From: Xestospongia bergquistia
Taxonomy: Eukaryota; Porifera; Demospongiae; Haplosclerida; Petrosiidae
Length of the DNA stretch: 64,000 nt
Direction: 5' to 3'
Assembly (NCBI GenBank): GCA_963965975.1
Contig: OZ014411.1
Location: 20,984,446-21,048,445, forward strand
Shown here: piece after piece, positions 4,108 through 53,641 of the stretch
How the letters are laid out: every line of letters starts with the position of its first letter
Position numbering within the stretch: the stretch's first letter is position 1
Notes under the pieces: model-generated
Databases searched by the model: none
Told to the model about the DNA's origin: nothing
The model's input: the letters and a program-made list of their open reading frames with translations, nothing else
Position numbers and translations under genes: made by a program

Positions 4108-4133
4108 TCTTGCCCCCCTCATATCCGCCTATG

Positions 4134-12835: not shown

Positions 12836-12880
12836 TAAATATCAATTCTATAGCAATTCTATACTAAAAATGTTACACAA

Positions 12881-13015: not shown

Positions 13016-13040
13016 GTTACACTCTCAGTATATATTTTCA

Positions 13041-13455
13041 GGATATCTAACTGGGGCAATGGTGGAGGGGAGAGTTGATTCGTTTCATGCTGATTACCCA
13101 GAGGTAGAGATTGCTAAACTGAAGGAGTCTTGTCACCACCATACTTGGAAGTTCTTTTCCAATAACAGCTGATAAGGCTAATGAGGTAAATAGTCAATGA
13201 TATTATGTTATAATTTGACTGTACAATTTATATCAAGTGGCATACTCTGCCTAAATCTTTTATAATGGAAATCTTTGCATATACTTCTTATTAGTCCAAG
13301 TCTTTTCCAGGATAGATGTCACTGTAAAAAGTAATATGTTTCATAATTATGGCAATACAAGTTACATGTAGACATAATACTGTTTTAAATACTAATATAC
13401 TGATTATCAATTGTTACAAGTAATATTAGTTGTAACAACTGGTAAATATCAATTC
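13041..13455. repeat. local duplication, copy B
   Basis: Partner of 12,457-12,835. Here the segment follows TTTTCAG directly, so it could act as an exon, and its open frame joins an upstream ATG at 12,981. It ends at a TGA near 13,170. Confidence 0.65.
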
Positions 13456-13556
13456 TATAGCACATTTAGTATATTATCTTTACTTTCAAACAATTTACTA
13501 CATGCAAACTGTATAACCATATATTGTTAAATCAACCAATTACTTTCTTTTTATAG

Positions 13557-13653
13557 TGATGGTCATTGGCAACTAAATATGGCTACAGAGCAACAGTACA
13601 CAATAGGTACATGTTGGAACCGGTGGGCACATGTCTCAAGGAATAAACACTAA
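13557..13653 (+). CDS. exon-like segment ending in stop, unknown gene
   Basis: It follows CTTTCTTTTTATAG. The open frame from 13,558 reads DGHWQLNMATEQQYTIGTCW and continues to a TAA at 13,651-13,653. It joins in phase to the exon-like segment at 12,118-12,181. No domain is recognised. Confidence is low because there is no homology and the region is locally duplicated. Confidence 0.25.
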
Positions 13654-13684
13654 TCTGGTTCACATATACTAAGAATATTAACTA

Positions 13685-13835
13685 AAGTTCTGTGTACATG
13701 CTCAGTGTAGCTGGCCAGAATAGAGTAGTGAACTCCAGTATACATTGAATTTCATTTACACATCATGTATGTCAGTAATGTTACTTATTGCAGATTATGA
13801 ACTCACAGAACAGCTTCTCACAGTCACACTCTCAG
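13685..13835. repeat. local duplication of acceptor-like segment, copy B
   Basis: Partner of 12,881-13,015, including the TTATTGCAG acceptor-like site and the sequence after it. It differs by a short insertion (TGAATT) near 13,745. Confidence 0.65.
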
Positions 13836-14107
13836 TCAGTGGCCTAGGAAGAAGGTATTTGCTATATATGCTACATATTATATCGCATATTTCTTTCCTC
13901 AGACTAATGTAGGTCCTTGATGCTATGTTACTGGTAAACCAAGAGTGAGCTCGTCTCCATAAAAAGTCCACTTTAACTCTTCAGTTCAATGCTTCAACAA
14001 ACTATTAAAAAGAATGTTGTTATACCTTTGTCTATTCTATTCCTTCTTCACTTCACTACTTTCACTTCTCTGTCATAAGAAAAATGTGAATCCATCTCTG
14101 TCTATCA

Positions 14108-21500: not shown

Positions 21501-24500
21501 GTGTTAATATCAGGAATGGATGTTAATGTATAAATCTGAGTTGATGATTACTGTCTCTGTTTATTGCAATTATTATCTTTGTATAATATAAATTTCATAT
21601 GTAGCTATGTGTATAAGCTTTGCTTAATTAACTGAACTACTATGCTTTTTTATCGAGTAAACAGTGCTAAAGAAATTATTAATTGTGACATTACAGAAAA
21701 CACTAATTTTGTCCAAATTATTGGAAGAACTATATTACATTTGTGACCACTATATCCTGTTTTTTAGTTGTTTTGTTTTAGTTATTGTTGTTTTAAGACA
21801 CTATTTACTATCCTTTTTATAGTTTGTAAAAATATACATGATAATCATATCCATACTACATAAAACATCAACCAGTTATGGAACTTTTTGCACATTAATG
21901 AAGATATTTCTCTTGATATAATACACAAATTTTCATTATTAAATGATTAGGTATACTGCTCTATGTTTTGTACAAATTTTTATACTACAAGATATTATTG
22001 AAATAAATAAACTAAGAAGTTGGTGGGAATATTAAATTTTATTTAAAAGTCTCTTTAGTTTTATGGAAATACTAGTTTACATTTAGTAATACATTTAGTG
22101 TTTTTATTTTTGTATTAGAATAACAGTCTAATTGAATTTACTGAGAAAGGAGATTTGTCAGGTGTAAAAGACATTCTTATTAGAGGAGGCAATGTAAATA
22201 CTTTAGATGAGGTAAGTCTATTTCATTTTAAGATCTACAAATATGCCAAATATGATGAATATTGGAAGAAGATGGTACCAATCCCTTATTACAATAATAG
22301 AAAAATCTGTCATTTGTTTTTATAACATGTGTATTAACTAATTTTACTACTTATTCTTATTGGACACTACCAGATGTACAAACATCACTTTTTCATAATT
22401 TTATCAATAGTCAGTTGAAATTCATACACAAAAATAACAGTGATGGAAATGAATTGAAGCATTATTTGTTTAGCTTTGAATTTTACACTTTAAATGTTTA
22501 AAAATATAATTTTGTGTATACACAGGACAGCAAATGTCATGCATACTACTTGAATTTGTATGCCACTGGGTAGTAAATAAATAGATGAGATTGTTTGTTG
22601 GTTTTCTGACAGTGCTGATAGCATGATTTCATCTTATTATAAAACTAGAGAGTATTGAAGAATTTAAAGGTAATAATGAATCCAGGAGTGGTATATTTCT
22701 GTAACTGGTATGCTTGTTGCTATTATTAAGAAGTCCCCAATTGAAATGGTGACCTTTTTTATTGTCCAGATTGTTATAGACCTATAGTTTGTGAGATGCA
22801 ATAATTGTCAGAGAGGGATGATGTTGGTTAAACTTGTTAATAATATAATTAGAGAGCCAGCCCTATGTTAATATAAAGAAGATGATAGCTGATATGCTAA
22901 GCACTTAAAGAGCAACGTGTTATATTTTTGTGAGATGCTGGTCTGTTTAGTCAATAGTATATAGGTCTAAATTGTACTAATTCTATGTTTGTATCTTGTT
23001 TATCAGTCCCTCATATTACAGTGTATATAGTTTTAATCCATCTTGCATGAATTAGTCTTTTAAAAACTTCTTTAAGTAATAAAGGCTTATACTAGTAATA
23101 GATTTCATCAAGTCCTACATGTACTAGATGACTTAGATGTAGACAACATATGAATGTAATATGTTATAATGTTAAAACCAAAGTGCATAAATATAAAAGA
23201 ATAGAGAAAGTTGTTATGTTTGTACTGTTATTGTAGAGTGTTAAGAGATTCATTTTCCAGTTGATTGTTTGTGTGTTTTTTCTAATAGAGAGGATGGGCA
23301 GCTCTTCATTATGCAAGTTACAAAGGACATCTAGACATCATTGAAGTATTAGTCAACAATAATGCTAATATAGATGTTACTACGGTAATTGAGATGACGA
23401 GAATGAAGTGTATTCTTTAAGTTGTGTGAATGGATAGTAACAATTAGAGAAGACATAGCATAGATATTGTAATAATATAAGACTAGTTTATCTAACTCTA
23501 ACAAATACATAAAGCAGGTGGTAGTAGCAGTATAAGGGCAGCATGATGTTTTTCTTCATTGTTGGTATTGTTGTGTTTGTGCATAGATAATTACAAAACT
23601 AGAAGATTTAAAATATTATTTTCTAGAGAAATTTATGTTTTTACCTAAAGTATACGGTTTTAGAATTTTTATTTAAAGTAATTTAAGAATGATAATAGTA
23701 GTTTATAGAGAGTTTGAAGTATCTTCTGAGATTTACTTCATTTTTTCAAAATATTCATATTTGGATGTATTGAAAAGTCTTTTGAATTGAATGTTGTTAT
23801 TTTATTTACCCTATTGTATTGACATTAATGGTTTTTAATGCCTTGGACGGAAAGCTTGGCATGGTGTACAATAGATGTTTTGTATTGTGTAGTATCTATG
23901 TGTATAGATTTTTGGAGCAATTTTATTGACTATATTGTAATAGCAGCTTATGAGATGAAGAAATGAGATTAAAGTGGATCCTTTAACTGTTGATTCCAAT
24001 ATGAACAATGAATTTTGTTAAAACTAACTGGATGTGATCCGACATTAGGTATCACTAATAATGCTTAAATCTTCTTGCTAAGCTGTTTCTTCACCTATAT
24101 GTTTAGCATTTTATAGCTATAGGCTAGTATAAATTTTGAGCATATCAATGTGTTGTTGTCATTTTTTAATGATATTGCATTTGGTTTCCACATTTCTGTT
24201 GCTGTTATTACTTATAATGTGAATGTGTCCTTTACAATATAAGAGTACGTAATTTTGATATAATGTATTCTAAGTATATTTAATTTGTTGTTGTGATTTT
24301 GTTTATTGTATTTTTTGTTTTCACATTTATGTTCCTGTGATTACTTATCATCTAAATGTTTTGTTTAAAATATAATAGGAGGTAAGTGTGATATAATGTA
24401 GTATTGATTCTAAGTCTTTTGAATTGAATGTTGTTATTTTATTTAACCTGTTGTATTGACGTTAATGGTTTTTAATGCCTTGGACAGAAAGCTTGTCATG

Positions 24501-27500
24501 GTGTACAATAGATGTTTTGTATTGTGTAGTATCTATGTGTATCGACTTTTGGAGCAATTTTATTGAGTATATTGTAATAGCAGCTTATGAGATGAAGAAA
24601 TGAGATTAAAGTGGATCCTTTAACTGTTGATTCCAATATGAGCAATGAATTTTGTTAAAACAAACTGGATGTGATACGACATTAGGTATCACCAATAATG
24701 CTTAAATTTTCTTGCTAAGCTGTTTCTTCACCTATATGTTTAGCATTTTATAGCTATAGGGTAGTATGAATTTCTAGCATATCAATGTGTTGTTGTCATT
24801 TTGTTTTACAATATTGCATTTTGTTTCCACATTTCTGTTGCTGTTATTACTTATAATGTGAATGTGTCGTTTACAATATAAGAGTACGTAATTTTGATGT
24901 AATGTATTCTAAGTATATTTAATTTGTTGTTATGATTTTGTTTATCATATTTTTTGCTTTCACATTTATGTTCCTGTGATTACTTATCATCTAAATGTTT
25001 TGTTTAAAATATAATAGGAGGTAAGTGTGATATAATGTAGTATTCATTCTAAGACTTTTGAGTTGAATGTTGTTATTTTATTTACCCTATTGTATTGGTG
25101 TTAATGGTTTTCAATGCCTTGGATGGAATGCTTGGCATGGTGTACAATAGATGTTTTGTATTGTGTAGTATCTATGTGTATCGACTTTTGGAGCAATTTT
25201 ATTGAGTATATTGTAATAGCAGCTTATGAGATGAAGAAATGAGATTAAAGTGGATCCTTTAACTGTTGATTCCAATATGAGCAATGAATTTTGTTAAAAC
25301 TAACTGGATGTGATCCGACATTAGGTATCACTAATAATGCTTAAATTTTCTTGCTAAGCTGTTTCTTCACCTATATGTTTAGCATTTTATAGCTATAGGC
25401 TAGTATGAATTTTGAGCATATCAATATGTTGTTGTCATTTTTTTACGACATTGCATTTGGTTTCCACATTTCTGTTGCTGTTATTACTTATAATGTGAAT
25501 GTGTCGTTTACAATATAAGAGTACGTAATTTTGATGTAATGTATTCTAAGTATATTTAATTTGTTGTTATGATTTTGTTTATCATATTTTTTGTTTTCAC
25601 ATTTATGTTCCTGTGATTACTTATCATCTAAATGTTTTGTTTAAAATATAATAGGAGGTAAGTGTGATATAATGTAGTATTCATTCTAAGACTTTTGAAT
25701 TGAATGTTGTTATTTTATTTACCCTATTGTATTGGTGTTAATGGTTTTCAATGCCTTGGATGGAATGCTTGGCATGGTGTACAATAGATGTTTTGTATTG
25801 TGTAGTATCTATGTGTATCGACTTTTGGAGCAATTTTATTGAGTATATTGTAATAGCAGCTTATGAGATGAAGAAATGAGATTAAAGTGGATCCTTTAAC
25901 TGTTGATTCTAATATGAGCAATGAATTTTGTTAAAACTAACTGGATGTGATCCGACATTAGGTATCACTAATAATGCTTAAATTTTCTTGCTAAGCTGTT
26001 TCTTCACCTATATGTTTAGCATTTTATAGCTATAGGCTAGTATGAATTTTGAGCATATCAATGTGTTGTTGTCATTTTTTTACGACATTGCATTTTGTTT
26101 GCACATTTCTGTTGCTGTTATTACTTATAATGTGAATGTGTCGTTTACAATATAAGAGTACATAATTTTGATATAACGTATTCTAAGTATATTTAATTTG
26201 TTTTTGTGATTTTGTTTAACATATTTTTTGTTTTCACATTTATGTTCCTGTGATTACTTATAATCTAAATGTTTTGTTTAAAATATAATAGCGGGTAAGT
26301 GTGATATAATGTAGTATTCATTCTAAGTGTTTTGAATTGAATGTTGTTATTTTATTTACCCTATTGTATTGGCGTTAATGGTTTTCAATGCCTTGGATGG
26401 AATGCTTGGCATGGTGTACAATAGATGTTTTGTATTGTGTAGTATCTATGTGTATCGACTTTTGGAGCAATTTTATTGATTATATTGTAATAGCAGCTTA
26501 TGAGATGAAGAAATGAGATTAAAGTGGATCCTTTAACTGTTGATTCCAATATGAGCAATGAATTTTGTTAAAACTAACTGGATGTGATCCGACATTAGGT
26601 ATCACTAATAATGCTTAAATTTTCTTGCTAAGCTGTTCCTTCACCTATATGTTTAGCATTTTATAGCTATAGGCTAGTATGAATTTTGAGCATATCAATG
26701 TGTTGTTGTCATTTTTTTACGACTTTGCATTTTGTTTGCACATTTCTGTTGCTGTTATTACTTATAATGTGAATGTGTCTTTTACAATATAAGAGTACAT
26801 AATTTTGATATAACGTATTCTAAGTATATTTAATTTATTGTAGTGATTTTGTTTATCATATTTTTTGTTTTCTCATTTATGTTCCTGTGATTACTTATCA
26901 TCTAACTGTTTTGTTTAAAATATAATAGTGGGTAAGTGTGATATAATGTAGTATTCATTCTAAGTGTTTTGAATTGAATGTTGTTATTTTATTTACCCTA
27001 TTGTATTGGCGTTAATGGTTTTCAATGCCTTGGATGAAATGCTTGGCATGGTGTACAATAGATGTTTTGTATTGTGTAGTATCTATGTGTATCGACTTTT
27101 GGAGCAATTTTATTGAGTATATTGTAATAGCAGCTTATGAGATGAAGAAATGAGATTAAAGTGGATCCTTTAACTGTTGATTCCAATATGAGCAATGAAT
27201 TTTGTTAAAACTAACTGGATGTGATCCGACATTAGGTATCACTAATAATGCTTAAATTTTCTTGCTAAGCTGTTTCTTCACCTATATGTTTAGCATTTTA
27301 TAGCTATAGGCTAGTATGAATTTTGAGCATATCAATGTGTTGTTGTCATTTTTTTACGACATTGCATTTTGTTTGCACATTTCTGTTGCTGTTATTACTT
27401 ATAATGTGAATGTGTCGTTTACAATATAAGAGTACATAATTTTGATATAACGTATTCTAAGTATATTTAATTTGTTGTTGGGATTTTGTTTAACATATTT

Positions 27501-30500
27501 TTTGTTTTCACATTTATGTTCCTGTGATTACTTATAATCTAAATGTTTTGTTTAAAATATAATAGCGGGTAAGTGTGATATAATGTAGTATTCATTCTAA
27601 ATGTTTTGAATTGAATGTTGTTATTTTATTTACCCTATTGTATTGGCGTTAATGGTTTTCAATGCCTTGGATGGAATGCTTGGCATGGTGTACAATAGAT
27701 GTTTTGTATTGTGTAGTATCTATGTGTATCGACTTTTGGAGCAATTTTATTGAGTATATTGTAATAGCAGCTTATGAGATGAAGAAATGAGATTAAAGTG
27801 GATCCTTTAACTGTTGATTCCAATATGAGCAATGAATTTTGTTAAAACTAACTGGATGTGATCCGACATTAGGTATCACTAATAATGCTTAAATTTTCTT
27901 GCTAAGCTGTTCCTTCACCTATATGTTTAGCATTTTATAGCTATAGGCTAGTATGAATTTTGAGCATATCAATGTGTTGTTGTCATTTTTTTACGACTTT
28001 GCATTTTGTTTGCACATTTCTGTTGCTGTTATTACTTATAATGTGAATGTGTCTTTTACAATATAAGAGTACATAATTTTGATATAACGTATTCTAAGTA
28101 TATTTAATTTATTGTTGTGATTTTGTTTATCATATTTTTTGTTTTCTCATTTATGTTCCTGTGATTACTTATCATCTAACTGTTTTGTTTAAAATATAAT
28201 AGCGGGTAAGTGTGATATAATGTAGTATTCATTCTAAGTGTTTTGAATTGAATGTTGTTATTTTATTTACCCTATTGTATTGGCGTTAATGGTTTTCAAT
28301 GCCTTGGATGGAATGCTTGGCATGGTGTACAATAGATGTTTTGTATTGTGTAGTATCTATGTGTATCGACTTTTGGAGCAATTTTATTGAGTATATTGTA
28401 ATAGCAGCTTATGAGATGAAGAAATGAGATTAAAGTGGATCCTTTAACTGTTGATTCCAATATGAGCAATGAATTTTGTTAAAACTAACTGGATGTGATC
28501 CGACATTAGGTATCACTAATAATGCTTAAATTTTCTTGCTAAGCTGTTTCTTCACCTATATGTTTAGCATTTTATAGCTATAGGCTAGTATGAATTTTGA
28601 GCATATCAATGTGTTGTTGTCATTTTTTTACGACATTGCATTTGGTTTCCACATTTCTGTTGCTGTTATTACTTATAATGTGAATGTGTCGTTTACAATA
28701 TAAGAGTATTTAATTTTGATATAACGTATTCTAAGTATATTTAATTTGTTGTTGTGATTTTGTTTATCATATTTTTTGTTTTCACATTTATGTTCCTGTG
28801 ATTACTTATAATCTAAATGTTTTGTTTAAAATATAATAGCGGGTAAGTGTGATATAATGTAGTATTCATTCTAAGTGTTTTGAATTGAATGTTGTTATTT
28901 TATTTACCCTATTGTATTGGCGTTAATGGTTTTCAATGCCTTGGATGGAATGCTTGGCATGGTGTACAATAGATGTTTTGTATTGTGTAGTATCTATGTG
29001 TATCGACTTTTGGAGCAATTTTATTGAGTATATTGTAATAGCAGCTTATGAGATGAAGAAATGAGATTAAAGTGGATCCTTTAACTGTTGATTCCAATAT
29101 GAGCAATGAATTTTGTTAAAACTAACTGGATGTGATCCGACATTAGTTATCACTAATAATGCTTAAATTTTCTTGCTAAGCTGTTTCTTCACCTATATGT
29201 TTAGCATTTTATAGCTATAGGCTAGTATGAATTTTGAGCATATCAATGTGTTGTTGTCATTTTTTTACGACATTGCATTTGGTTTCCACATTTCTGTTGC
29301 TGTTATTACTTATAATGTGAATGTGTTGTTTACAATATAAGAGTATTTAATTTTGATATAACGTATTCTAAGTATATTTAATTTGTTGTTGTGATTTTGT
29401 TTATCATATTTTTTGTTTTCACATTTATGTTCCTGTGATTACTTATCATCTAACTGTTTTGTTTAAAATATAATAGCGGGTAAGTGTGATATAATGTAGT
29501 ATTCATTCTAAGTGTTTTGAATTGAATGTTGTTATTTTATTTACCCTATTGTATTGGTGTTAATGGTTTTCAATGCCTTGGATGGAATGCTTGGCATGGT
29601 GTACAATAGATGTTTTGTATTGTGTAGTATCTATGTGTATCGACTTTTGGAACAATTTTATTGAGTATATTGTAATAGCAGCTTATGAGATGAAGAAATG
29701 AGATTAAAGTGGATCCTTTAACTGTTGATTCCAATATGAGCAATGAATTTTGTTAAAACTAACTGGATGTGATCCGACATTAGGTATCACTAATAATGCT
29801 TAAATTTTCTTGCTAAGCTGTTTCTTCACCTATATGTTTAGCATTTTATAGCTATAGGCTAGTATGAATTTTGAGCATATCAATGTGTTGTTGTCATTTT
29901 TTTACGACATTGCATTTGGTTTCCACATTTCTGTTGCTGTTATTACTTATAATGTGAATGTGTCGTTTACAATATAAGAGTATTTAATTTTGATATAACG
30001 TATTCTAAGTATATTTAATTTGTTGTTGTGATTTTGTTTATCATATTTTTTGTTTTCACATTTATGTTCCTGTGATTACTTATAATCTAACTGTTTTGTT
30101 TAAAATATAATAGTGGGTAAGTGTGATATAATGTAGTATTCATTCTAAGTGTTTTGAATTGAATGTTGTTATTTTATTTACCCTATTGTATTGGCGTTAA
30201 TGGTTTTCAATGCCTTGGATGGAATGCTTGGCATGGTGTACAATAGATGTTTTGTATTGTGTAGTATCTATGTGTATCGACTTTTGGAGCAATTTTATTG
30301 AGTATATTGTAATAGCAGCTTATGAGATGAAGAAATGAGATTAAAGTGGATCCTTTAACTGTTGATTCTAATATGAGCAATGAATTTTGTTAAAACTAAC
30401 TGGATGTGATCCGACATTAGTTATCACTAATAATGCTTAAATTTTCTTGCTAAGCTGTTTCTTCACCTATATGTTTAGCATTTTATAGCTATAGGCTAGT

Positions 30501-33500
30501 ATGAATTTCGAGCATATCAATGTGTTGTTGTCATTTTTTTACGACATTGCATTTGATTTCCACATTTCTGTTGCTGTTATTACTTATAATGTGAATGTGT
30601 TGTTTACAATATAAGAGTATTTAATTTTGATATAACGTATTCTAAGTATATTTAATTTGTTGTTGTGATTTTGTTTATCATATTTTTTGTTTTCACATTT
30701 ATGTTCCTGTGATTACTTATCATCTAACTGTTTTGTTTAAAATATAATAGCGGGTAAGTGTGATATAATGTAGTATTCATTCTAAGTGTTTTGAATTGAA
30801 TGTTGTTATTTTATTTACCCTATTGTATTGGCGTTAATGGTTTTCAATGCCTTGGATGGAATGCTTGGCATGGTGTACAATAGATGTTTTGTATTGTGTA
30901 GTATCTATGTGTATCGACTTTTGGAGCAATTTTATTGAGTATATTGTAATAGCAGCTTATGAGATGAAGAAATGAGATTAAAGTGGATCCTTTAACTGTT
31001 GATTCCAATATGAGCAATGAATTTTGTTAAAACTAACTGGATGTGATCCGACATTAGGTATCACTAATAATACTTAAATTTTCTTGCTAAGCTGTTTCTT
31101 CACCTATATGTTTAGCATTTTATAGCTATAGGCTAGTATGAATTTTGAGCATATCAATGTGTTGTTGTCATTTTTTTACGACATTGCATTTTGTTTGCAC
31201 ATTTCTGTTGCTGTTATTACTTATAATGTGAATGTGTCGTTTACAATATAAGGGTACATAATTTTGATATAACGTATTCTAAGTATATTTAATTTGTTGT
31301 TGTGATTTTGTTTATCATATTTTTGTTTTCACATTTATGTTCCTGTGATTACTTATCATCTAACTGTTTTGTTTAAAATCTAATAGATGGTAAGTGTGAT
31401 ATAATGTAGTATTCATTCTAAGTGTTTTGAATTGAATGTTGTTATTTTATTTACCCTATTGTATTGGCGTTAATGGTTTTCAATGCCTTGGATGAAATGC
31501 TTGGCATGGTGTACAATAGATGTTTTATATTGTGTAGTATCTATGTGTATCGACTTTTGGAGCAATTTTATTGAGTATATTGTAATAGCAGCTTATGAGA
31601 TGAAGAAATGAGATTAAAGTGGATCCTTTAACTGTTGATTCTAATATGAGCAATGAATTTTGTTAAAACTAACTGGATGTGATCCGACATTAGTTATCAC
31701 TAATAATGCTTAAATTTTCTTGCTAAGCTGTTTCTTCACCTATATGTTTAGCATTTTATAGCTATAGGCTAGTATGAATTTTGAGCATATCAATGTGTTG
31801 TTGTCATTTTTTTACGACATTGCATTTGGTTTCCACATTTCTGTTGCTGTTATTACTTATAATGTGAATGTGTCGTTTACAATATAAGAGTACATAATTT
31901 TGATATAACGTATTCTAAGTATATTTAATTTATTGTTGTGATTTTGTTTATCATATTTTTTGTTTTCACATTTATGTTCCTGTGATTACTTATCATCTAA
32001 CTGTTTTGTTTAAAATATAATAGATGGTAAGTGTGATATAATGTAGTATTCATTCTAAGTGTTTTGAATTGAATGTTGTTATTTTGTTTACCATATTGTT
32101 TGAATTGTTTTTAATAGTTTTTAATGCCTTGCTTGGGGAAAATCACCATGTTGTACTATAATTGTTTTGGATTGTATCGTATCTATTTTGTATCCAATTT
32201 TACTTTTTTATCATAATGTTATAATATGCATTGTAGCTAATTATGCAATGTAGGACTAGTCAGTTTAAGTCAGTATCTTTTATAAAGATTATGGGAGGAC
32301 ATTAGTTATTACAGCTAGCTCTTCCTCTATGCTACTGAAAAGTAATTTTTTATTCTAGTCACAAACTAGTGTGAAGTTTCAAATTTGTGTTTATAATTTC
32401 CAATTGTTGAGAGTGATTTGATTCATATTTTGTTTGAGTATATATATAATATTATCTAAGTTTATAATAACACTAGTGTACTGATACATCTAAGTGTTGG
32501 TATAGGGTAATGTACTGATGTTATGATTAATGTTAATGTGGTAATTAATAATATATTTAGAATGGATCTACTGCAGTCATGTTAGCAGCAGATGAAGGAC
32601 ACAAAGATGTTGTTTTGATTTTAACACAGAAAGGAGCCAATCTAGATCTTGTCAACAAAGTAAGTGTTCATGCACACATGTTATATGAGAAAGTCAATAT
32701 AACTTTCTCATATAACATGACATTTTATACTTTTGTGTTTCTATGAATGTTGAAAGTAGAAGAGGATGCTAAGACCTTATGACAATATTAGAAAAAGTGT
32801 CATTTGTTTTTATAACATGTGTGTTGATCAGTTTTCCTACCTCTTCTTATTAGAGACCATTAGATGTACAGACACAACTTTTTCATAAAGAGATGCAGGC
32901 ACCAAAATAGCAGTGATGGACATGAATTGAAGCATGATTTGTTTAGCTTTGAATTATTCATTTTAAAATGTTTAGAAATAGAATTGTTATGTACATACAT
33001 AGGACAGCAATTGTCATGCATACTACTTGAATTTGTATGCCACTGGGTAGTAAATAAATAGATGAGATTGTTTGTTGGTTTTTTGACAGTGCTTATAGCA
33101 TGATTTCATCTTGTTATAAAACTAGAGAGTATTGAAGAATTTAAAGGTGATAATGAATCCAGGAGTGGTATATTTCTGTAACTGGTATGCTTGTTGCTAT
33201 TATTAAGAAGTCCCCAATTGAAATGGTGACCTTTTTTATTGTCCAGATTGTTATAGACCTATAGTTTGTGAGATGCAATAATTGTCAGAGAGAGATGATG
33301 TTGGTTAGACTTGTTAATAATATAATTAGAGAGCCAGCCCTATGTTAATACAAAGAAGATGATAGCTGATATGCTAATCACATAAAGAGCAACGTGTTAT
33401 ATTTTTGTGAGATGCTGGTCTGTTTAGTCAATAGTATATAGGTCTAAATTGTACTAATTCTATGTTTGCATCTTGTTTATCAGTCCCTCATATTACAGTG

Positions 33501-39500: not shown

Positions 39501-42500
39501 CTAACTGGATGTGATCTGACATTAGGTATCACTCATAATGCTTAAATCTTCTTGCTAAGCTGTTTCTTCACCTATATGATTAGCATTTTATAGCTATAAG
39601 GGTAGTATGAATTTTTAGCATATCAATGAGTTGTTGTCATTTTTTTACAATATTGCATTTGGTTTCCACGTTTATGTTGCTGTTATTACTTATAATGTGA
39701 ATGTGTCGTTTACAATATAAGAGTATGTAGTTTTGTTATAATGTATTTTAAATATATTTAATTTGTTGTTGTGATTTGTTTGCTCTTTTTTTTCACATTT
39801 ATGTTCCTGTGATTACTTATCATCTAAATGTGTTGTTTAAAATATAATAGTCGGTAAGTGTGATATAATGTACTATTCATTCTAAGTCTTTTGAATTGAA
39901 TGTTGTTATTTTATTTACCCTACTGTATTGACCTTAATGATTTTCAATGCCTTGGATTGAACGCTTCACATGGTGTACAATAGATGTTTTGTATTGTGTA
40001 GTATCTATGTGTATCGATTTTATTGAGTATATTTCAATAGCAGATTATGAGATCAAGAAATGAGATTAAAGTTGATCCTTTAACTGATGATTCCAATATG
40101 AGCAATGAGTTTTGTTAAAACTAACTGGATGTGGTATGACATTAGGTATCACTAATAATGCTTAAATCTTCTTGCTAAGCTGTTTCTTCACCTATATGTT
40201 TAGCATTTTATAGATATAGGCTAGTATGTAGAATTCATTCTAAGTCTTTTGAATTGAGTGTTGTTATTTTGTTTACCCTATTGTTTGAATTGATTTTAAT
40301 ATACCTTGCTTTGGGAAAATCAACAGGCTGTTCTATAATTGTTTCGGATTGTATCATATCTATTTTGTATCCACTTTTGCTTTTTTATTATAATGTTATA
40401 TGCAATCTATGAGAGCAACAAATGACATTAAAGTGCATGCATCCTATAACTGGTGATTTCTATAACAGCAATGAATTTTGTTAGTTTCAACTGTGATTGC
40501 TATGATATTAAGTATCTATCACTAATAATGCTTGAAGCATCTTGCTAGGTTTATCTTTATGTATATTTTGAACATTTTATAGCTACAGCCTGGTATGAAT
40601 TCTGAGGATATTGAATGTGTTTTTACGGTATTGTTTTTCTGTTTCTGCATTTATATTGCTGTTATTACTAGTCATCTGAATGTGTCCGTCACAATATAGT
40701 AGAATGTAATTTTGATATAATGTATTCTAAGTCTATTGAATATGTTGTAATGATTTTGTTTACTCTATTGTTTTGTTTCTCACATTTATATTTGTGTGAT
40801 TACTTGTCATCTGAATGTGTTGTTTAAAATATAATAGCCTATAAGTGTGATATAATGTGGTATATGAATTCTAAATTTTTTGAATTGAGTGTTGTTATTT
40901 TATTTACCCTATTGTATGTATTGATGTTAATGGTTTTTAATGCCTTGCATGGGAAGCTTAGGAGTCTGTAGTATAATTGTTTTTAGAATGTGTGGTATCT
41001 ATGTGTATCCACTTTTGTAATTTTATTATATCATTTTATGCAAGCTTTAAGACCAAGAAATGGCAGTAAACTTCATCCTTTAATTTTAGATTCTTTGAGA
41101 CACCAATAAATTTTGTTATCCCTATCTCTGAATGTAAGCACATTAAGTGTATCTTAGAATGCTTAAAGTTTCTTGTTAGTTTGTTTCTCTGCCTATTGTT
41201 TTATCATTTTTAAACTATAGTCATGCATAGACATTGTAGCTAATTATGCAATGTAGGTCTAGTCAGTTTAAGTCAGTATCTTTAAAAAACATTATGGGAG
41301 GACATTTAATAATATTCTTGTTACTCTTTTACAGACTTTAATGCCTTTTATCCATTGTTTGTTCATAGTATTTAGTATTGAATTGTCTTATTATTCTCCT
41401 AAGAATTAATTATTACAGTTACTCTTCCTCTACGATACTGAAAAGTAATTTTTTATTCTAGTCACAAACTAGTGTGAAGTTTCAAATTTGTGTTTATAAT
41501 TTCCAATTGTTGAGAGTGATTTGATTCATATTTTGTTTGAGTATATATATAATATTGTCTAAGTTTATAATAACACTAGTGTACTGATACATCTAAGTGT
41601 TGGTATAGGGTAATGTACTGATGTTATGATTAATGTTAATGTGGTAATTAATAATATATTTAGAATGGATCTACTGCAGTCATGTTAGCAGCAGATGAAG
41701 GACACAAAGATGTTGTTTTGATTTTAATACAGAAAGGAGCCAATCTAGATCTTGTCAACGAAGTAAGTGTTCATGCACACATGTTATATGAGAAAGTCAA
41801 TATAACTTTCTCATATAACATGACATTTTATACTTTTGTGTTTTTATGAATGTTGAAAGTAGAAGAGGATGCTAAGACCTTATGACAATATTAGAAAAAG
41901 TGTCATTTGTTTTTATAACATGTGTGTTGATCAGTTTTCCTACCTCTTCTTATTAGAGACCATTAGATGTACAGACACAACTTTTTCATAAAGAGATGCA
42001 GGCACCAAAATAGCAGTGATGGACATGAATTGAAGCATGATTTGTTTAGCTTTGAATTATTCATTTTAAATTGTTTAGAAATAGAATTGTTATGTACATA
42101 CATAGGACAGCAATTGTCATGCATACTACTTGAATTTGTATGCCACTGGGTAGTAAATAAATAGATGAGATTGTTTGTTGGTTTTTTGACAGTGCTTATA
42201 GCATGATTTCATCTTGTTATAAAACTAGAGAGTATTGAAGAATTTAAAGGTGATAATGAATCCAGGAGTGGTATATTTCTGTAACTGGTATGCTTGTTGC
42301 TATTATTAAGAAGTCCCCAATTGAAATGGTGACCTTTTTTATTGTCCAGATTGTTATAGACCTATAGTTTGTGAGATGCAATAATTGTCAGAGAGAGATG
42401 ATGTTGGTTAGACTTGTTAATAATATAATTAGAGAGCCAGCCCTATGTTAATACAAAGAAGATGATAGCTGATATGCTAATCACATAAAGAGCAACGTGT

Positions 42501-45500
42501 TATATTTTTGTGAGATGCTGGTCTGTTTAGTCAATAGTATATAGGTCTAAATTGTACTAATTCTATGTTTGCATCTTGTTTATCAGTCCCTCATATTACA
42601 GTGTATATAGTTTTAATCCATCTTGCATGAATTAGTCTTTAAAAACTTCTTTAAGTAATAAAGGCTTATACTAGTAATAGACTTCATCAAGTCCTACATG
42701 TACTAGATGACTTAGATGTAGACAACATATGAATGTAATATGTTATAATGTTAACACCAAAGTGCATAAATATAAAAGAATAGAGAAAGTTGTTATGTTT
42801 GTACTGTTATTGTAGAGTGTTAAGAGATTCATTTTCCAGTTGATTGTTTGTGTGTTTTTTTCTAATAGAGAGGATGGGCAGCTCTTCATTATGCAAGTTA
42901 CAATGGAGATCCAGACATCGTTGAAGTATTAGTCAACAATAATGCTAATATAGATGTTACTACGGTAATTGAGATGACAAGAATGAAATGTATTCTTTAA
43001 GTTGTGTGAATGGATAGTAACAATTAGAGAAGACATAGCATAGATATTGTAATAATATAAGACTAGTTTATCTAACTCTAACAAATACATAAAGCAGGTG
43101 GTAGTAGCAGTATAAGGGCAGCATGATGTTTTTCTTCATTGTTGGTATTGTTGTGTTTGTGCATAGATAATTACAAAACTAGAAGATTTAAAATATTATT
43201 TTCTAGAGAAATTTATGTTTTTACCTAAAGTATACGGTTTTAGAATTTTTATTTCAAGTAATTTAAGAATGATAATAGTAGTTTATAGAGAGTTTGAAGT
43301 ATCTTCTGAGATTTACTTCTTTTTTTCAAAATATTCATATTTGGATGTATTGAAAAGTCTTTTGAATTGAATGTTGTTATTTTATTTACCCTATTGTATT
43401 GACGTTAATGGTTTTCAATGCTTTGGACGGAAAGCTTGGCATGGTGTACAATAGATGTTTTGTATTGTGTAGTATCTATGTGTATTGACTTTTGGAGCAA
43501 TTTTATTGACTATATTGTAATAGCAGCATAAGAGATCAAGAAATGAGATTAAAGTGGATCCTTTAACTGTTGATTCCAACATAAACAATGAATTTTGTTA
43601 AAACTAACTGGATGTGATCCAACATTAGGTATCACTAATAATGCTTAAATTTTCGTGCTAAGCTGTTTCTTCACGTATATGTTTAGCATTTTATAGCTAT
43701 AGGCTAGTATGAATTTGGAGCATATCAATGTGTTGTTGTCATTTTTTTACGATATTGCATTTGGTTTCCACATTTATGTTGCTTTTATTACTTATAATGT
43801 GAATGTGTCGTTTACAATATAAGAGTATTTAATTTTGATATAATGTATTCTAAGTATATTTAATTTGTTGTTGTTATTTTGTTTATTGTATTTTTTGTTT
43901 TCACATTTATGTTCCTGTGATTACTTATCATGTAAATGTGTTGTTTAAAATATAATAGAAGGTAAGTGTGATATAATGTAGTATTCATTCTAAGTCTTTT
44001 GAATTGAATGTTGTTATTTTATTTTCCCTACTGTATTGACCTTAATGGCTTTCAATGCCTTGGATGGTTCACTTTGCATGGTGTACAATAGATGTTTTGT
44101 ATTGTGTAGTATCTATGTGTATCGACTTTTGGAGCAATTTTATTGAGTATATTGTAATAGCAGCTTATGAGATGAAGAAATGAGATTAAAGTGGATCCTT
44201 TAACTGTTGATTCCAATATGAGCAATGAATTTTGTTAAAACTAACTGGATGTGATACGACATTAGGTATCACCAATAATGCTTAAATCTTGCTAAGCTGT
44301 TTCATCACCTATATGTTTAGCATTTTATAGCTATAGGCTAGTATGAATTTTGAGCATATCAATGTGTTGTTGTCATTTTTTTACAATATTGCATTTGGTT
44401 TCCACATTTCTGTTGTTGTTATTACTTATAATGTGAATGTGTCGTTTACAATATAAGAGTACGTAATTTTGATATATTGTATTCTAAGTATATTTAATTT
44501 GTTGTTGTGATTTTGTTTATTGTATTTTTTGTTTTCACATTTATGTTCCTATGATTACTTATCATCTAAATGTGTTGTTTAAAATATAATAGTCGGTAAG
44601 TGTGATATAATGTAGTATTCATTCTAAGACTTTTGAATTGAATGTTGTTATTTTATTTACCCTACTGTATTGACGTTAATGGTTTTTAATGTCTTGGATG
44701 GAAAGCTTGGCATGGTGTACAATAGATGTTTTGTATTGTGTAATATCTATGTGTATCGACTTTTCGAACAATTTTATTGATTATATTGTAATAGCAGCTT
44801 ATGAGATGAAGAAATGAGATTAAAGTGGATCCTTTAACTACTAATTCCAATATGAGCAATGAATTTTGTTAAAACTAACTGGATGTGATCCGACATTAGG
44901 TATCACTAATAATGCTTAAATTTTCTTGCTAAGCTGTTTCTTCACCTATATGTTTAGCATTTTATAGCTATAGGCTAGTATGAATTTTGAGCATATCAAT
45001 GTGTTGTTGTCATTTTTTACGACATTGCATTTGGTTTCCACATTTCTGTTGCTGTTATTACTTATAATGTGAATGTGTCGTTTACAATATAAGAGTACAT
45101 AATTTTGATATAACGTATTCTAAGTATATTTAATTTGTTGTTGTGATTTTGTTTATTGTATTTTTTGTTTTGACATTTATGTTCCTGTGATTACTTATCA
45201 TCTAAATGTGTTGTTTAAAATATAATAGGAGGTAAATGTGATATAATGTAGTATGCATTCTAAGACTTTTGAATTGAATGTTGTTATTTTATTTACCCTA
45301 TTGTATTGACGTTAATGGTTTTTAATGCCTTGGATGGAAAGCTTGGCATGGTGTACAATAGATGTTTTGTATTGTGTAGTATCTATGTGTATTGACTTTT
45401 GGAGCAATTTTATTGAGTATATTGTAATAGCAGCTTATGAGATGAAGAAATGAGATTAAAATGGATCCTTTAACTGTTGATTCCAATATGAGCAATGAAT

Positions 45501-48500
45501 TTTGTTAAAACTAACTGGATGTGATCCGACATTAGGTATCACTAATAATGGTTAAATTTTCTTGCTAAGCTGTTTCATCACCTATATGTTTAGCATTGTA
45601 TAGCTATATGCTAGCATGAATTTCGATTATATCAATGTGTTGTTGTCATTTTTTTACGGTATTGCATTTTGTTTCCACATTTCTGTTGCTGTTATTACTT
45701 ATAATGTGAATGTGTTGTTTACAATATAAGAGTACGTAATTTTCATATAATGTATTCTAAGTATATTTAATTTATTGTTGTGATTTTGTTTATTGTATTT
45801 TTTGTTTTCACATTTATGTTCCTGTGATTACTTATCATGTAAATGTGTTGTTTAAAATATAATAGAAGGTAAGTGTGATATAATGTAGTATTCATTCTAA
45901 GTCTTTTGAATTGAATGTTGTTATTTTATTTACCCTACTGTATTGATGTTAATGCTTTGGACAGAAAGCTTGGCATGGTGTACAATAGATGTTTTGTATT
46001 GTGTAGTATCTATGTGTATCGACTTTTGCAGCAATTTTATTGAGTATATTGTAATAGCAGCTTATGAGATCAAGAAATAAGATTAAAGTGAATCCTTTAA
46101 CTGTTGATTCCAATATGAGCAATGAATTTTGTTAAAACTAACTGGATATGATCCGACATTAGATATCACTAATAATGCTTAAATTTTCTTGCTAAGCTGT
46201 TTCTTCACCTATATGCTTAGCATTTTATAGCTATAGGCTAGTATGAATTTCGAGCATATCAATGTGTTGTTGTCATTTTTTACAATATTGCATTTGATTT
46301 CCACATTTCTGTTGCTGTTATTACTTCTAATGTGAATGTGTTGTTTACAATATAAGAGTACATAATTTTGATATAATATATTCTAAGTATATTTAATTTA
46401 TTGTTGTGATTTTGTTTATCATATTTTTTGTTTTCACATTTATGTTCCTGTGATTACTTATCATCTAAATGTGTTCTTTAAAAATCTAATAGAGGGTAAG
46501 TGTGATATAATGTAGTATTCATTCTAAGTCTTTTGAATTGAATTTTATTATTTTAATTACCCTAATGTATTGACGTTAATGGTTTTTAATGCCTTGGACG
46601 GAAAGCTTGTCATGGTGTACAATAGATGTTTTGTATTGTGTAGTATCTATGTGTATCGACTTTTGGAGCAATTTTATTGAGTATATTGTAATAGCAGCTT
46701 ATGAGATGAAGAAATGAGATTAAAGTGGATCCTTTAACTGTTGATTCCAATATGAGCAATGAATTTTGTTAAAACTAACTGGATGTGATCCGACATTAGG
46801 TATCACTAATAATGCTTAAATTTTCTTGCTAAGCTGTTTCTTCACCTATATGTTTAGCATTTTATAGGTATATGCTAGCATGAATTTCAATTATATCAAT
46901 GTGTTGTTGTCATTTTTTTACGACATTGCATTTTGTTTGCACATTTCTGTTGCTGTTATTACTTATAATGTGAATGTGTCGTTTACAATATAAGAGTATG
47001 TAATTTTGATATAATATATTCTAAGTATATTTAATTTGTTGTTGTGATTTTGTTTATCATATTTTTTGTTTTCACATTTATGTTCCTGTGATTACTTATC
47101 ATCTAAATGTGTTATTTAAAATATAATAGGTGGTAAGTGTGATATAATTTAGTATTCATTCTAAGACTTTTGTATTGAATGTTGTTATTTTATTTACCCT
47201 ACTGTATTGACGTTAATGGTTTTTAATGTCTTGGATGGAAAGCTTGGCATGGTGTACAATAGATGTTTTGTATTGTTTAGTATCTATGTGTATCGACTTT
47301 TGGAGCAATTTTATTGAGTATATTGTAATAGCAGCTTATGAGATGAAGAAATGAGATTAAAGTGGATCCTTTAACTGTTGATTCCAATATGAGCGATGAA
47401 TTTTGTTAAAACTAACTGGATGTGATCTGACATTAGGTATCACAAATAATGCTTAAATTTTCTTACTAAGCTGTCTCATCACCTATATGTTTAGCATTTT
47501 ATAGCTATAGGCTAGTATGAATTTTGAGCATATCAATGTGTTGTTGTCATTTTTTTTACGATATTGCATTGGGTTTCCACATTTCTGTTGTTGTTATTAC
47601 TTATAATGTGAATATGTCGTTTACAATATAAGAGTACATAATTTTGATATAATGTATTCTAAGTATATTTAATTTATTGTTGTGATTTTGTTTATTGCAT
47701 TTTTTGTTTTCACATTTATGTTACTGTGATTACTTATCATCTAAATGTGTTGTTTAAAAATCTAATAGAGGGTAAGTGTGATATAATGTAGTATTCATTC
47801 TAAGTCTTTTGAATTGAATTTTATTATTTTATTTACCCTAATGTATTGACGTTAATGGTTTTTAATGCCTTGGATGGAAAGCTTGGCATGGTGTACAATA
47901 GATGTTTTGTATTGTGTAGTATCTATGTGTATCGACTTTTGCAGCAATTTTATTGAGTATATTGTAATAGCAGCTTATGAGAATCAAGAAATGAGATTAA
48001 AGTGGATCCTTTAACTGTTGATTCCAATATGAGCAATGAATTTTGTTAAAACTAACTGGATGTGATCCGACATTAGGTATCACTAATAATGCTTAAATTT
48101 TCTTGCTAAGCTGTTTCTTCACCTATGTGTTTAGCATTTTATAGCTATAGGCTAGTATGAATTTGGAGCATATCAATGTGTTGTTGTCATTTTGTTTTAC
48201 AATATTGCATTTGGTTTCCACATTTCTGTTGCTGTTATTACTTATAATGTGAATGTGTCTTTTACAATATAAGGGTACGTAATTTTGATATAATGTATTC
48301 TAAGTATATTTAATTTGTTTTTGTGATTTTGTTTAATGTATTTTTTGTTTTCACATTTATGTTCCTGTGATTTCTTATCATCTAAATGTGTTGTTTAAAA
48401 TATAATAGATGGTAAGTGTGATATAATGTAGTATTCATTCTAAGTCTTTTGAATTGAATTTTATTATTTTAATTACCCTAATGTATTGACGTTAATGGTT

Positions 48501-51500
48501 TTTAATGCCTTGGACGGAAAGCTTGTCATGGTGTACAATAGATGTTTTGTATTGTGTAGTATCTATGTGTATCGACTTTTGGAACAATTTTATTGAGTAT
48601 ATTGTAATAGCAGCTTATGAGATGAAGAAATGAGATTAAAGTGGATCCTTTAACTGTTGATTCCAATATGAGCAATGAATTTTGTTAAAACTAACTGGAT
48701 GTGATCCGACATTAGGTATCACTAATAATGCTTAAATTTTCTTGCTAAGCTTTTTTTTCACCTATATGTTTAGCATTTTATAGGTATATGCTAGCATGAA
48801 TTTCAATTATATCAATGTGTTGTTGTCATTTTTTTACGACATTGCATTTTGTTTCCACATTTCTGTTGCTGTTATTACTTATAATGTGAATGTGTCGTTT
48901 ACAATATAAGAGTATTTAATTTTGATATAATATATTCTAAGTATATTTAATTTGTTGTTGTGATTTTGTTTATTGTATTTTTTGTTTTCACATTTATGTT
49001 CCTGTGATTACTTATCATCTAAATGTGTTATTTAAAATATAATAGGAGGTAAGTGTGATATAATTTAGTATTCATTCTAAGACTTTTGTATTGAATGTTT
49101 ATTATTTTATTTACCCTACTGTATTGACGTTAATGGTTTTTAATGTTTTGGATGGAAAGCTTGGCATGGTGTACAATAGATGTTTTGTATTGTGTAGTAT
49201 CTATGTGTATCGACTTTTGGAGCAATTTTATTGAGTATATTGTAATAGCAGCTTATGAGATCAAGAAATGAGATTAAAGTGGATCCTTTAACTGTTGATT
49301 CCAATATGAGCGATGAATTTTGTTAAAACTAACTGGATGTGATCTGACATTAGGTATCACTAATAATGCTTAAATTTTTTTGCTAAGCTGTCTCATCACC
49401 TATATGTTTAGCATTTTATAGCTATAGGCTAGTATGAATTTGGAGCATATCAATGTGTTGTTGTCATTTTTTTTACGATATTGCATTTGGTTTCCACATT
49501 TCTGTTGCTGTTATTACTTATAATGTGAATGTGTCGTTTACAATATAAGAGTACGTAATTTTGATATAATGTATTCTAAGTATATTTAATTTGTTGTTGT
49601 GATTTTGTTTAATGTATTTTTTGTTTTCACATTTATGTTCCTGTGATTACTTATCATCTGAATGTGTTATTTAAAATTTAATAGAAGGTAAGTGTGATAT
49701 AATGTAGTATTCATTCTAAGACTTTTGAATTGAATGTTGTTATTTTATTTACTCTACTGTATTGACGTTAATGGTTTTTAATGCCTTGGACGGAAAGCTT
49801 GGCATGGTGTACAATAGATGTTTTGTATTGTGTAGTATCAATGTGTATTGATTTTTGCAGCAATTTTATTGAGTATATTGTAATAGCAGCTTATGAGATG
49901 AAGAAATGACTTTAAAGTGGATCCTTTAACTGTTGATTTCAATATGAGCAATGAATTTTGTTAAAACTAACTGGATGTGATCCGACATTAGGTATCACTA
50001 ATAATGCTTAAATTTTCTTGCTAAGCTGTTTCTTCACCTATATGTTTAGCATTTTATAGCTATAGGCTAGTATGAATTTGGAGCATATCAATGTGTTGTT
50101 GTCTTTTTTTTTACGATATTGCATTTGGTTTCCACATTTCTGTTGCTGTTATTACTTATAATGTGAATGTGTCGTTTACAATATAAGAGTATGTAATTTT
50201 GATATAATGTATTCTAAGTATATTTAATTTGTTGTTGGGATTTTATTTATTGTATTTTTTGTTTTCACATTTATGTTCCTGTGATTACTTATCATGTAAA
50301 TGTGTTGTTTAAAATATAAATAGTGGGTAAGTGTGATATAATGTAGTATTCATTCTAAGACTTTTGAATTGAATGTTGTTATTTTATTTACTCTACTGTA
50401 TTGACGTTAATGGTTTTTAATGCCTTGGACGGAAAGCTTGGCATGGTGTACAATAGATGTTTTGTATTGTGTAGTATCAATGTGTATTGACTTTTGCAGC
50501 AATTTTATTGAGTATATTGTAATAGCAGCTTATGAGATGAAGAAATGAGATTAAAGTGGATCCTTTAACTGTTGATTCCAATATGAGCAATGAATTTTGT
50601 TAAAACTAACTGGATGTGATCCGACATTAGGTATCACTAATAATGCTTAAATTTTCTTGCTAAGCTGTTTCTTCACCTATATGTTTAGCATTTTATAGCT
50701 ATAGGGTAGTATGAATTTCTAGCATATCAATGTGTTGTTGTCATTTTTTTACGATATTGAATTTGGTTTCCACATTTCTGTTGCTGTTATTACTTATAAT
50801 GTGAATATGTCGTTTACAATATAAGAGTATGTAATTTTGATATAATGTATTCTAAGTATATTTAATTTATTGTTGTGATTTTGTTTATTGTATTTTTTGT
50901 TTTGACATTTATGTTCCTGTGATTACTTATCATCTAAATGTGTTGTTTAAAATATAATAGATGGTAAGTGTGATATAATGTAGTATTCATTCTAAGACTT
51001 TGAATTGAATGTTGTTATTTTATTTTCCCTACTGTATTGACGTTAATAGTTTTTAATGCCTTGAATGGAAAGCTTGGCATGGTGTAGAATAGATGTTTTG
51101 TATTGTGTAGTATCTATGTGTATCGACTTTTGGAGCAATTTTATTGAGTATATTGTAATAGCAGCTTATGAGATGAAGAAATGAGAATAAAGTGGATCCT
51201 TAAACTGTTGATTCCAATATGAGCAATGAATTTTGTTAAAACTAACTAGATGTGATCCAACATGAGGTGTCACTAATAATGCTTAAATCTTTTTGCTAAG
51301 CTGTTTCTTCACCTATATGTTTAGCATTTTGTAGCTATAGGGTAGTATGAATTTCGAGCATATCAATGTGTTGTTGTCATTATTTTACAATATTGCATTT
51401 GGTTTCCACATTTATGTTGCTGTTATTACTTCTAATGTGAATGTGTCGTTTAAAATATAAGAGTATGTAATTTTGATACGATGTATTCTAAGTATATTTA

Positions 51501-53641
51501 ATTTATTGTTGTGATTTTGTTTATTGTATTTTTTGTTTTCACATTTATGTTCCTGTGATTACTTATAATCTGAATGTTTTGTTTTAATATATTTAGAGTG
51601 GATCTACTGCAGTAATGTTAGCAGTAGAAAATGGACACATAGATGTTGTTTTGATTTTAACACAGAAAGGAGCCAATTTAGACCTTGTCAATGAAGTAAG
51701 TGTTCATGTTCATATGTTATATGAGAAAAGCTGTAAAAGTGAAGATAAAATGTAATATTCCTTTTCTCTAAAGACAACTATTAGTTATTTTGCTAATACA
51801 ATATTAATAATTAATTAGTTATTTTACTAATATACTATTAGTTATTGAACTAATATAAGAAAGGTTGTATAAACATCAGTTTTTCATGAATATTTCAATA
51901 CTTAGTTCAGGTGCTTACACCAAAACACAGCAAAGGATATGAATTGAAGCATCTTTTGTTTAGCTTTGAGTATTAAAGAATTTGAAGATTAGTATTATTA
52001 CAGCACCAATATATTTCTCAACTATAACTGGTATACTTCTTGTTATCATTAACAAGTCCATATTTTATTTATTATACCATATGTTTTCTTACTTGTTTCT
52101 GTTTAACTTTGTTTCTTGTTCCACCATTTGCACTGATAAAGACATATGAATAAATATTGACAATTTGACTTACTTTAGTCAGATAGAAAATAACACATAG
52201 AGAATGACATGGTGTTCTTTCTTCACTTTTTTATCCATTTAAAACATGATAACTATAAAAGTAAGATACTTTTACAGATTAAAATTTACACTGCAAGGCA
52301 TGATTTCACATGAGTGTCTACTTTAGAAGTCTTATATTGACACTTTTAGTAATAAAAGTAGTGATTTACATTGATATTTGAAAGTATCCCTTGTGAGAGA
52401 CAGTTATACTTATATTCAGGAAGAAAAATGGAGATCGATTTTATTCTACCATGAGGCCAGTTCTAAGTGGTGTCAATTTGAGTTCTTGTTAGTAATCTAT
52501 CAGTTTCTTTTTTGTAATGAGATCAGATTAGTCTTATCTTTTAATAGTCAGGTATATTTACAGCACATTACCAGTTCAATTTCTAGTTTGTTGTTATTAG
52601 TATGATTATACATCCATACATAAATTCCACTATCTGATGCATACATTATTTAATAAGTATTATTAATTTTAGTAATGCTCTGTTGTATAATATATCTGAA
52701 TACACTCATCGATCCTATAATTATAAACAAAAGGACATTGATTATGAACATATTTCAACTAATTTGTAATTCAAATAATAATAACAAAGCAAGTAAATGA
52801 AATTTTCCAAAAGTTTCATTTAATGTAGTCATGGTGGTCAACAAGCCAGAAGTAGGAATAGCAATATGGACATTCCTATGTCATAGCCACATAAACGTAC
52901 ATGAACACAAATTTATGAAATTCTTTTTTTCTATGCCGAACATTTGTTTACTTGACTTCTTATGGAGGTGTTTTCTACAAAATTCTATGACAACTGTTAT
53001 GACAAAAGATGATTATTCCCTTGATATCATGGCTAATATGTAAGGATGTCCATACTGTCATTCCTACTTTTGGATTTTTGTGATGTTTGTATAGCCATCT
53101 CTCCATTTAATCATTTTTTTCCGAATTTTTTATTTATTTTATTGTAATATAAGTGTTGGCTAGTGATTACTTCATGTAATCAAATTATATATTATAAATA
53201 ATTGATGAGAGAAATTCAAAACTTGCTTATTTCTTGGAACAGAACTAATATGCTTCTTAATTAAGTTTGTAGGACAGTTTTAAATAGTCCATGTTAAAAG
53301 ATATAAAGAAGCTAATGTAGTTTATTTCTCTGCTATATTTGGTAAAAATGAACTCAGTCTTTCAATAAACACCATTTTACACACATCAGGCAAGTGATAG
53401 CACTGCTTATATAAGAATGGTGCAATGTTTTTCTTCTCTTTTCATTTTAAACAACAATAACTATAAACTAGACAGCGTTTTAAGATTTTTATTTTTGATA
53501 GAAAGTTATGTTTTAATTTAAATGAGATCTATTTTAAGTGCTTTTACAATAAAAATATGATTTTTACAAAACTTGCAAGTAGCCTTAAAATAGATCAGAC
53601 AATATTGAAATTCCTACATAAGCCACTGCATAAGGCCCTAT

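Follow-up and report, generated by a model that had tools for sequence, protein, structure and literature searches.

Why should a satellite lying inside the introns of a protein-coding gene carry, in most of its units, three variable bases set between what look like intact splice sites? The question is raised by a stretch of 64,000 nucleotides of the sponge Xestospongia bergquistia (assembly GCA_963965975.1, contig OZ014411.1, positions 20,984,446 to 21,048,445; hereafter the window; GC content 30.4%), of which the + strand contains part of an ankyrin-repeat gene. Two types of exons, A and B, alternate in this gene, with three copies of each in the window, and each of the three A-to-B introns contains one satellite array made of units of about 637 bp, repeated head-to-tail and homogenised. 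The core of the unit reads ATAATAG-NNN-GTAAGTGTGATATAATG, and most units thus hold a candidate one-codon exon (the three central bases, hereafter the slot) between intact splice sites. Judging from the sequences, the cores are probably, if far from surely, live one-codon exons in phase 0, selected for splicing, for openness and for variety, which would add variable residues between ankyrin repeats.

An initial annotation of the window had reported TAATAG, three bases and GTAAGT in about 34 units of the three arrays, with eight different triplets (GAG, CGG, TGG, ATG, AAG, TCG, AGG and GTG), and had stated that the first two bases vary while the flanks stay fixed. Our count is 35 cores of the form AG-NNN-GTAAGT (13, 10 and 12 per array), GTAAGT being intact in 33 of them (the altered donors are GTAAAT at 45229 and ATAAGT at 40838), and the same eight triplets are recovered, along with a degenerate CCT. 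The additional claim that the slot always ends in G holds for 34 of the 35 window cores (the exception being CCT, at 40838) but not for the sister arrays, the third base being G in 313, T in 51, A in 46 and C in one of a set of 411 cores. This set gathers the cores with both AG and GTAAGT found in 26 stretches (the window and L009–L033); 28 stretches were taken from the genome, picked for holding the motif. As for the contrast between slot and flanks, it is pronounced: in an alignment of 34 window cores (units 40152–40521 and 40522–41220 dropped), the two slot columns are the most diverse of all 637 (0.728 and 0.683), the next column reaching 0.599 for a mean of 0.056 and 415 invariant columns.

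The same excess appears when changes are counted along a phylogeny. A FastTree tree was inferred from 165 full-length units of the 637-bp family, leaving out the slot, and parsimony changes were then counted for each column; units short of a nearly full profile were dropped from the tree, as were columns filled in less than 80% of the units from the counts. On this tree, the three slot bases require 67, 62 and 4 changes, respectively, while the next column requires 25 and the mean is 5.3, which puts the first two positions at about 12 times the unit mean. Taken as a single character, they require 87 changes in the 637-bp family, of which 52 affect both bases, which hints at either whole-codon exchange between units or saturation. 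Four other array sets were studied in the same way (only units having both AG and GT were registered, and one core truncated at the edge of a locus was dropped), and the excess is present in three of them: C1:13.2-13.55M (126 units; 24, 28 and 28 slot changes, with at most 14 elsewhere), C7 (37 units; 16, 16 and 2, highest other column 6) and C1:9.6M (19 units; 6, 6 and 4, highest other column 4).

On either side of the slot, the splice signals are retained. AG is found in all 165 units and GT in 162, and AG plus GTAAGT accumulate 7 changes in total over the tree, versus a base-matched mean of 46.5 (none of 20,000 draws was as low), while the same spaced pattern placed elsewhere in the unit requires at least 10 changes. 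The comparison of these positions with the unit average, which the initial annotation had left to an alignment, therefore comes out on the side of conservation. The core block as a whole shows 2.61 changes per column, the lowest other 41-bp window of the unit showing 3.63. Upstream of the slot, an A at position -24 is kept in 89.7% of the cores (neighbours: 56% and 70%) and is followed by a T-rich stretch from about -22 to -13; in this profile, for which the flanks, and not AG, slot or GTAAGT, were used for detection, AG is present in 393 of 397 cores. The conserved A and the T-rich stretch form a candidate branch point. An A/T-rich tract before the AG had been held against strong acceptor use, an argument that loses weight in view of this T-rich stretch and of the context of the exon B acceptor, which is A/T-rich too. 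Finally, the order of preference for the third slot base across the 411 cores (G>T>A>>C) matches the one known for the last exon base before a donor.

How far this organisation extends was examined over the source genome (146.46 Mb, 21 contigs). Matches to the 637-bp unit number 177, whereas the core motif, with two mismatches or fewer, has 3,421 (1,996 + 1,425), and it is also carried by further arrays built of units of 136–143 bp, likewise homogenised and in head-to-tail tandem. With only 3 matches for the reversed-pattern control, the motif is not due to chance. Exact cores (AATAG-NNN-GTAAGTGTNATA) amount to 1,728, of which 1,055 have a G as third base and 673 another base.

These exact cores largely lack stop codons. 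The absence of TAG, already remarked upon in the window, extends to the genome: the 1,055 G-ending cores split into 243 VAG, 456 TBG and 356 remaining triplets, with not a single TAG, for an expectation of 105 by plain independence and 311 by quasi-independence, both figures being rough, since the copies are related. On the 165-unit tree, 6.0–12.8 gains of TA were expected and none was found. Stops are likewise absent from the 411 cores, where 25.7 would be expected on average if first bases were permuted inside their stretches (minimum over 2,000 permutations: 14), and from the 223 units of the four other array sets. Among the 98 cores of the form T-A/G/T-A/C/T, we observed TTT 84 times, TAT 6 times, TTA 5 times, TGA twice and TAA once. 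In total, stops of all kinds occur in 3 of the 1,728 exact cores: the first lies outside the satellite (L036), the second belongs to a decayed array (L035) and the third to a lone unit (L034), with no other exact core nearby and an exon resembling exon B some 0.6 kb downstream.

Two internal controls show what becomes of the slot when the splice signals decay. First, the unit contains an older internal repeat (consensus positions 75–251 vs. 209–391, 76% identical), owing to which a sister core lies 121–135 bp upstream of each core; an example, with TAC followed by ATAATT, is found at 28070–28078 (+ strand). Among the 165 units, the sister core retains AG in 149 and GT in 124, shows length changes, and its slot is mainly TAT, GAT or TAC, with TAG twice. 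Second, the decayed array L035 (C6:4724100-4725200), with units of about 142 bp, has TCA six times, TAA once and several broken donors. In this one decayed array and this one set of sister cores, slot variety, openness and length thus accompany intact splice signals.

All six ankyrin exons of the window are in phase 0, which bears out the initial annotation for the exons on either side of the arrays, and three nucleotides between phase-0 neighbours, with an acceptor AG before and a donor GT after, would keep the frame, as expected from a microexon. Exon A spans 96 nt in the window (32 codons), at 23289–23384 (ending in ACG|GTAATT), 33765–33860 and 42869–42964, and exon B 99 nt (33 codons), at 32561–32659 (its end followed by GTAAGT, with an Ank match in Pfam), 41664–41762 and 51597–51695, all on the + strand. 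When joined in the order A-B-A-B, their translation matches Pfam Ank (PF00023, E-value 4.3e-32); these exons of 96–99 nt are the coding sequence recognised so far in the part of the gene in view. The arrays, also on the + strand, lie at 23775–32201, 34251–41220 (degenerate beyond 40228) and 43355–51592, and blocks of introns and exons have been duplicated too, e.g., 22284–32019 vs. 41878–51591, at 94.6% identity.

In five introns (before the exon B at 51597 in the window, and in L011, L014, L017 and L020; by eye), the last unit passes straight into the exon B acceptor, the two AGs coinciding, which means that the intron before a coding exon ends, in those cases, with the 3' end of a unit. Moreover, the donor of exon B starts with GTAAGTGT in many copies, like the donors of the cores. 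Both resemblances suggest that the unit may derive from a duplicated exon B neighbourhood, in which the exon would have shrunk to one codon. The idea that the slot replaces ankyrin residue 33 was considered and ruled out, as exon A, of 32 codons in the window, already has 33 in the other copies examined. In L013 and L014, a second short copy of the end of exon A, with its donor, directly follows the exon A donor.

Of the 26 core-bearing stretches, the window included, 24 have detected ankyrin exons, on the same strand as the cores in every case, and, in the stretches examined, the arrays are flanked by an A-type exon on one side and a B-type exon on the other wherever both are in view. No ankyrin exon was detected in L019; the ankyrin search, and with it the strand check, covered the window and L009–L032, as did the sister-core comparison and part of the surveys of slot length and of TA triplets. 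The length of the slot is nearly constant at 3 nt: five short slots were found genome-wide, none of them of zero length (AG directly before GT). In L030, one core at about 3514 on the - strand has a spacer between AG and GTAAGT of perhaps 6 nt (CATAAG; by eye).

Taken together, these features can be read as follows. A core would consist of an acceptor AG, three phase-0 bases and a donor GTAAGT, and the satellite would be a series of tandem introns, each about 140 or 634 nt long, parted by single codons, between exons A and B. Transcripts would include one codon or several through splicing, possibly choosing one, some or all units, and thereby acquire variable residues where two ankyrin repeats meet. 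The junction of ankyrin repeats corresponds to the tips of beta-turns, which are a binding surface. Selection would keep the splice signals, purge the stops and favour codon variety, as the remaining sequence of the unit undergoes homogenisation; variety might be driven by diversifying selection, by conversion that exchanges codons, or by the two together.

Several observations weigh against this reading or narrow it. The loci are paralogous and some stretches are adjacent, so that the agreement in strand and place reflects shared descent and does not amount to 24 independent proofs. One A-to-B intron (in L017, from 7211 to 8296) has no core at four mismatches or fewer, which implies that codon inclusion is not obligatory for the frame. 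The conserved zone extends from -15 to +25, hence beyond the splice signals, which might reflect the needs of so small an exon or another function. In one array set (C1:17.57M, 41 units), the slot changes (7, 10 and 10) exceed the mean of 2.8 but not the top column (11). Units of one array often share a codon, such as GAG in 8 of the 9 units of L022; in L033 (C1:9614001-9621000), a 136-bp array, 19 units use only GAA, TTT and CGA, which looks like the shuffling of a small codon stock. Synonymous slot events (1.0 seen vs. 2.2 expected) are uninformative either way. No docking or selector pairing of one unit with the five window intron flanks was detected beyond shuffles (z from -0.7 to +1.6). 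Furthermore, codons other than stops are also depleted among the 411 cores: TAY is absent (5 expected), GGG is seen 3 times (25 expected), CAG 7 times (21 expected) and NTA never (12 expected), while GG was gained only once on the 165-unit tree. These deficits imply that independence is a rough null and that rules besides stops are at work; in the same set, AAG is seen 6 times (16 expected) and GAG 70 times (37 expected). Part of the absence of TAG might be due to competing splice sites: acceptors of the NAGNAG kind would put CAG and TAG at a disadvantage relative to GAG, and TA in the slot would produce a GTAnGT donor upstream. Stop avoidance as the only cause of the missing TA is not upheld, as TAT, found only 6 times genome-wide, is rare as well. 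Of the two, stop avoidance alone requires translation, and both it and splice competition require the use of AG or GT by the spliceosome.

The initial annotation had left open whether the core is a microexon, a relay site, a decoy or a fossil. We favour the one-codon exon; the relay and the decoy rank lower, and the fossil is unlikely. Under the relay hypothesis, which we hold to be unlikely, though the best of the alternatives, the units would be points of stepwise removal of a long, repeat-laden intron, the codons being kept as a by-product and their variety being unselected, so that some 10 to 30 tolerated residues, or more, should follow one another in the protein. The structure AG-NNN-GTAAGT would restore a donor after each step, short units would yield introns of about 140 nt, and constant inclusion of every unit would strongly predict the lack of TAG. 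On the other hand, such a relay explains neither the roughly twelvefold excess of changes at the first two slot bases nor the L017 intron devoid of cores. Known recursive splicing ratchet points, according to PMC8605326, have the acceptor next to the donor in long introns, whereas three variable bases intervene here.

A second alternative, which strikes us as improbable, is that the cores are splice decoys or regulators, bound by the spliceosome and never translated, the slot being a hot spot of mutation or conversion and the missing triplets those that create competing sites. The composition of the first 100 VAG matches listed, all on C1 (GAG 70, AAG 19 and CAG 11), fits NAGNAG avoidance, TAC is rare along with TAT, and the alteration of both bases in most slot events is in line with a hot spot. 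Yet CAG, the strongest competing acceptor, is present, while TAG is missing altogether from the G-ending cores, and TGG is frequent (41 of the 411 cores) in spite of making GTGGGT. In addition, hypervariability stops short of the third base in the 637-bp family and the slot length hardly varies, both of which count against this alternative.

Still less probable, in our opinion, is a DNA-level element, i.e., a 40-bp block used for binding or recombination, whose three central bases are free and whose likeness to splice sites is incidental. Tandem repeats can carry binding boxes, the entire block from -15 to +25 is conserved and the spacer length is nearly fixed, but such an element predicts neither the lack of TAG, nor the preference for G, T and A over C at the third base, nor the AG-on-AG match to a real acceptor, nor a slot rate far above that of the unit. 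Lastly, that the cores are fossils, i.e., now functionless leftovers of an exon B that collapsed and was multiplied as the satellite expanded, is very improbable: the units do resemble the surroundings of exon B with the exon cut to 3 nt (acceptor context in the five introns, GTAAGTGT donor) and a decayed array does exist (L035), but AG and GTAAGT are far more conserved than the unit, and it is precisely the decayed array and the sister cores that lose splice sites and slot variety alike.

Returning to one-codon exons, we compared them with known systems of exon-based variation. In Dscam-type arrays, tandem homologous alternative exons, which differ in coding content, lie between two constant exons; the tandem homologous units between exons A and B are alike in this respect, except that they are candidate exons, of one codon each, and that the array is a satellite. 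Schistosome micro-exon genes, as described in PMC4350168, have tiny symmetrical exons, alternative splicing, proteins differing by a few residues and a fast evolution. The likeness lies in very small symmetrical exons varying proteins; in those genes, however, most of the coding region consists of small exons, and the products are secreted or membrane-anchored, whereas here single codons lie on a satellite inside the introns of ankyrin genes. Natural splicing of exons as short as 3 and 1 nt is reported in PMC4674806, PMC8831610, PMC7821500 and PMC8042270; the Arabidopsis microexon is one single exon, in contrast to the 1,728 exact cores of the present genome, with their hypervariable codon. 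Among the matches listed from the open literature, a coverage in which subscription journals are mostly lacking, no title or abstract opening concerned satellite-borne or arrayed one-codon exons.

Within the window, the 35 slots are distributed as follows, all on the + strand. In array 1, GAG occupies 24379–24381, 25018–25020 and 25655–25657, CGG 26292–26294, 27566–27568, 28203–28205, 28840–28842, 29477–29479 and 30751–30753, TGG 26929–26931 and 30114–30116, and ATG 31387–31389 and 32024–32026. Array 2 has GAG at 34855–34857, 35494–35496, 37380–37382, 38611–38613 and 39232–39234, TGG at 36131–36133, ATG at 36770–36772 and 38001–38003, TCG at 39851–39853, and CCT, with its decayed donor, at 40838–40840. 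In array 3, AAG is found at 43959–43961, 45866–45868 and 49685–49687, TCG at 44593–44595, GAG at 45229–45231 (followed by GTAAAT) and 49046–49048, AGG at 46493–46495 and 47769–47771, GTG at 47130–47132, ATG at 48409–48411 and 50961–50963, and TGG at 50324–50326.

The remainder of the window contains traces of mobile elements, all on the - strand: pieces of a hAT transposase at 6687–8087 (Dimer_Tnp_hAT, 4.8e-06; DUF4371, 1.9e-05, under its cut-off), a BED zinc finger fragment at 1–363 (3.5e-05), perhaps another transposase end, and a reading frame at 56795–57154 that resembles, by eye, a mobile-element tyrosine recombinase, with no Pfam match at 0.01. Short local repeats (91–97% identity), partly interlaced, lie at 3877–5653 and 12449–13836. 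No structured RNA was detected in the window, whether as an Rfam match at gathering score or as a tRNA.

A bolder extension, which we put forward tentatively and regard as possible at best, is that of a genome-encoded codon library, in which more than 1,000 one-codon cassette exons would be borne by a satellite in the introns of a large ankyrin family, each transcript drawing one or a few codons. If so, splicing would vary the turn residues between two ankyrin repeats, and the satellite would be the engine that makes and reshuffles the codons, following a logic like that of Dscam or of engineered ankyrin binders. Exons of one codon would probably be missed by standard annotation and short-read mapping. 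Even without translation, it calls for an explanation that two bases flanked by constant splice signals should change about 12 times faster than the unit that carries them. If the codons are spliced in, this would be a diversification system having the single codon as its unit and a satellite, a kind of sequence usually deemed non-coding, as its carrier; it would provide a dense natural test of the recognition of 3-nt exons, show repeat expansion writing protein variety, and may mark a gene family involved in recognition or immunity.

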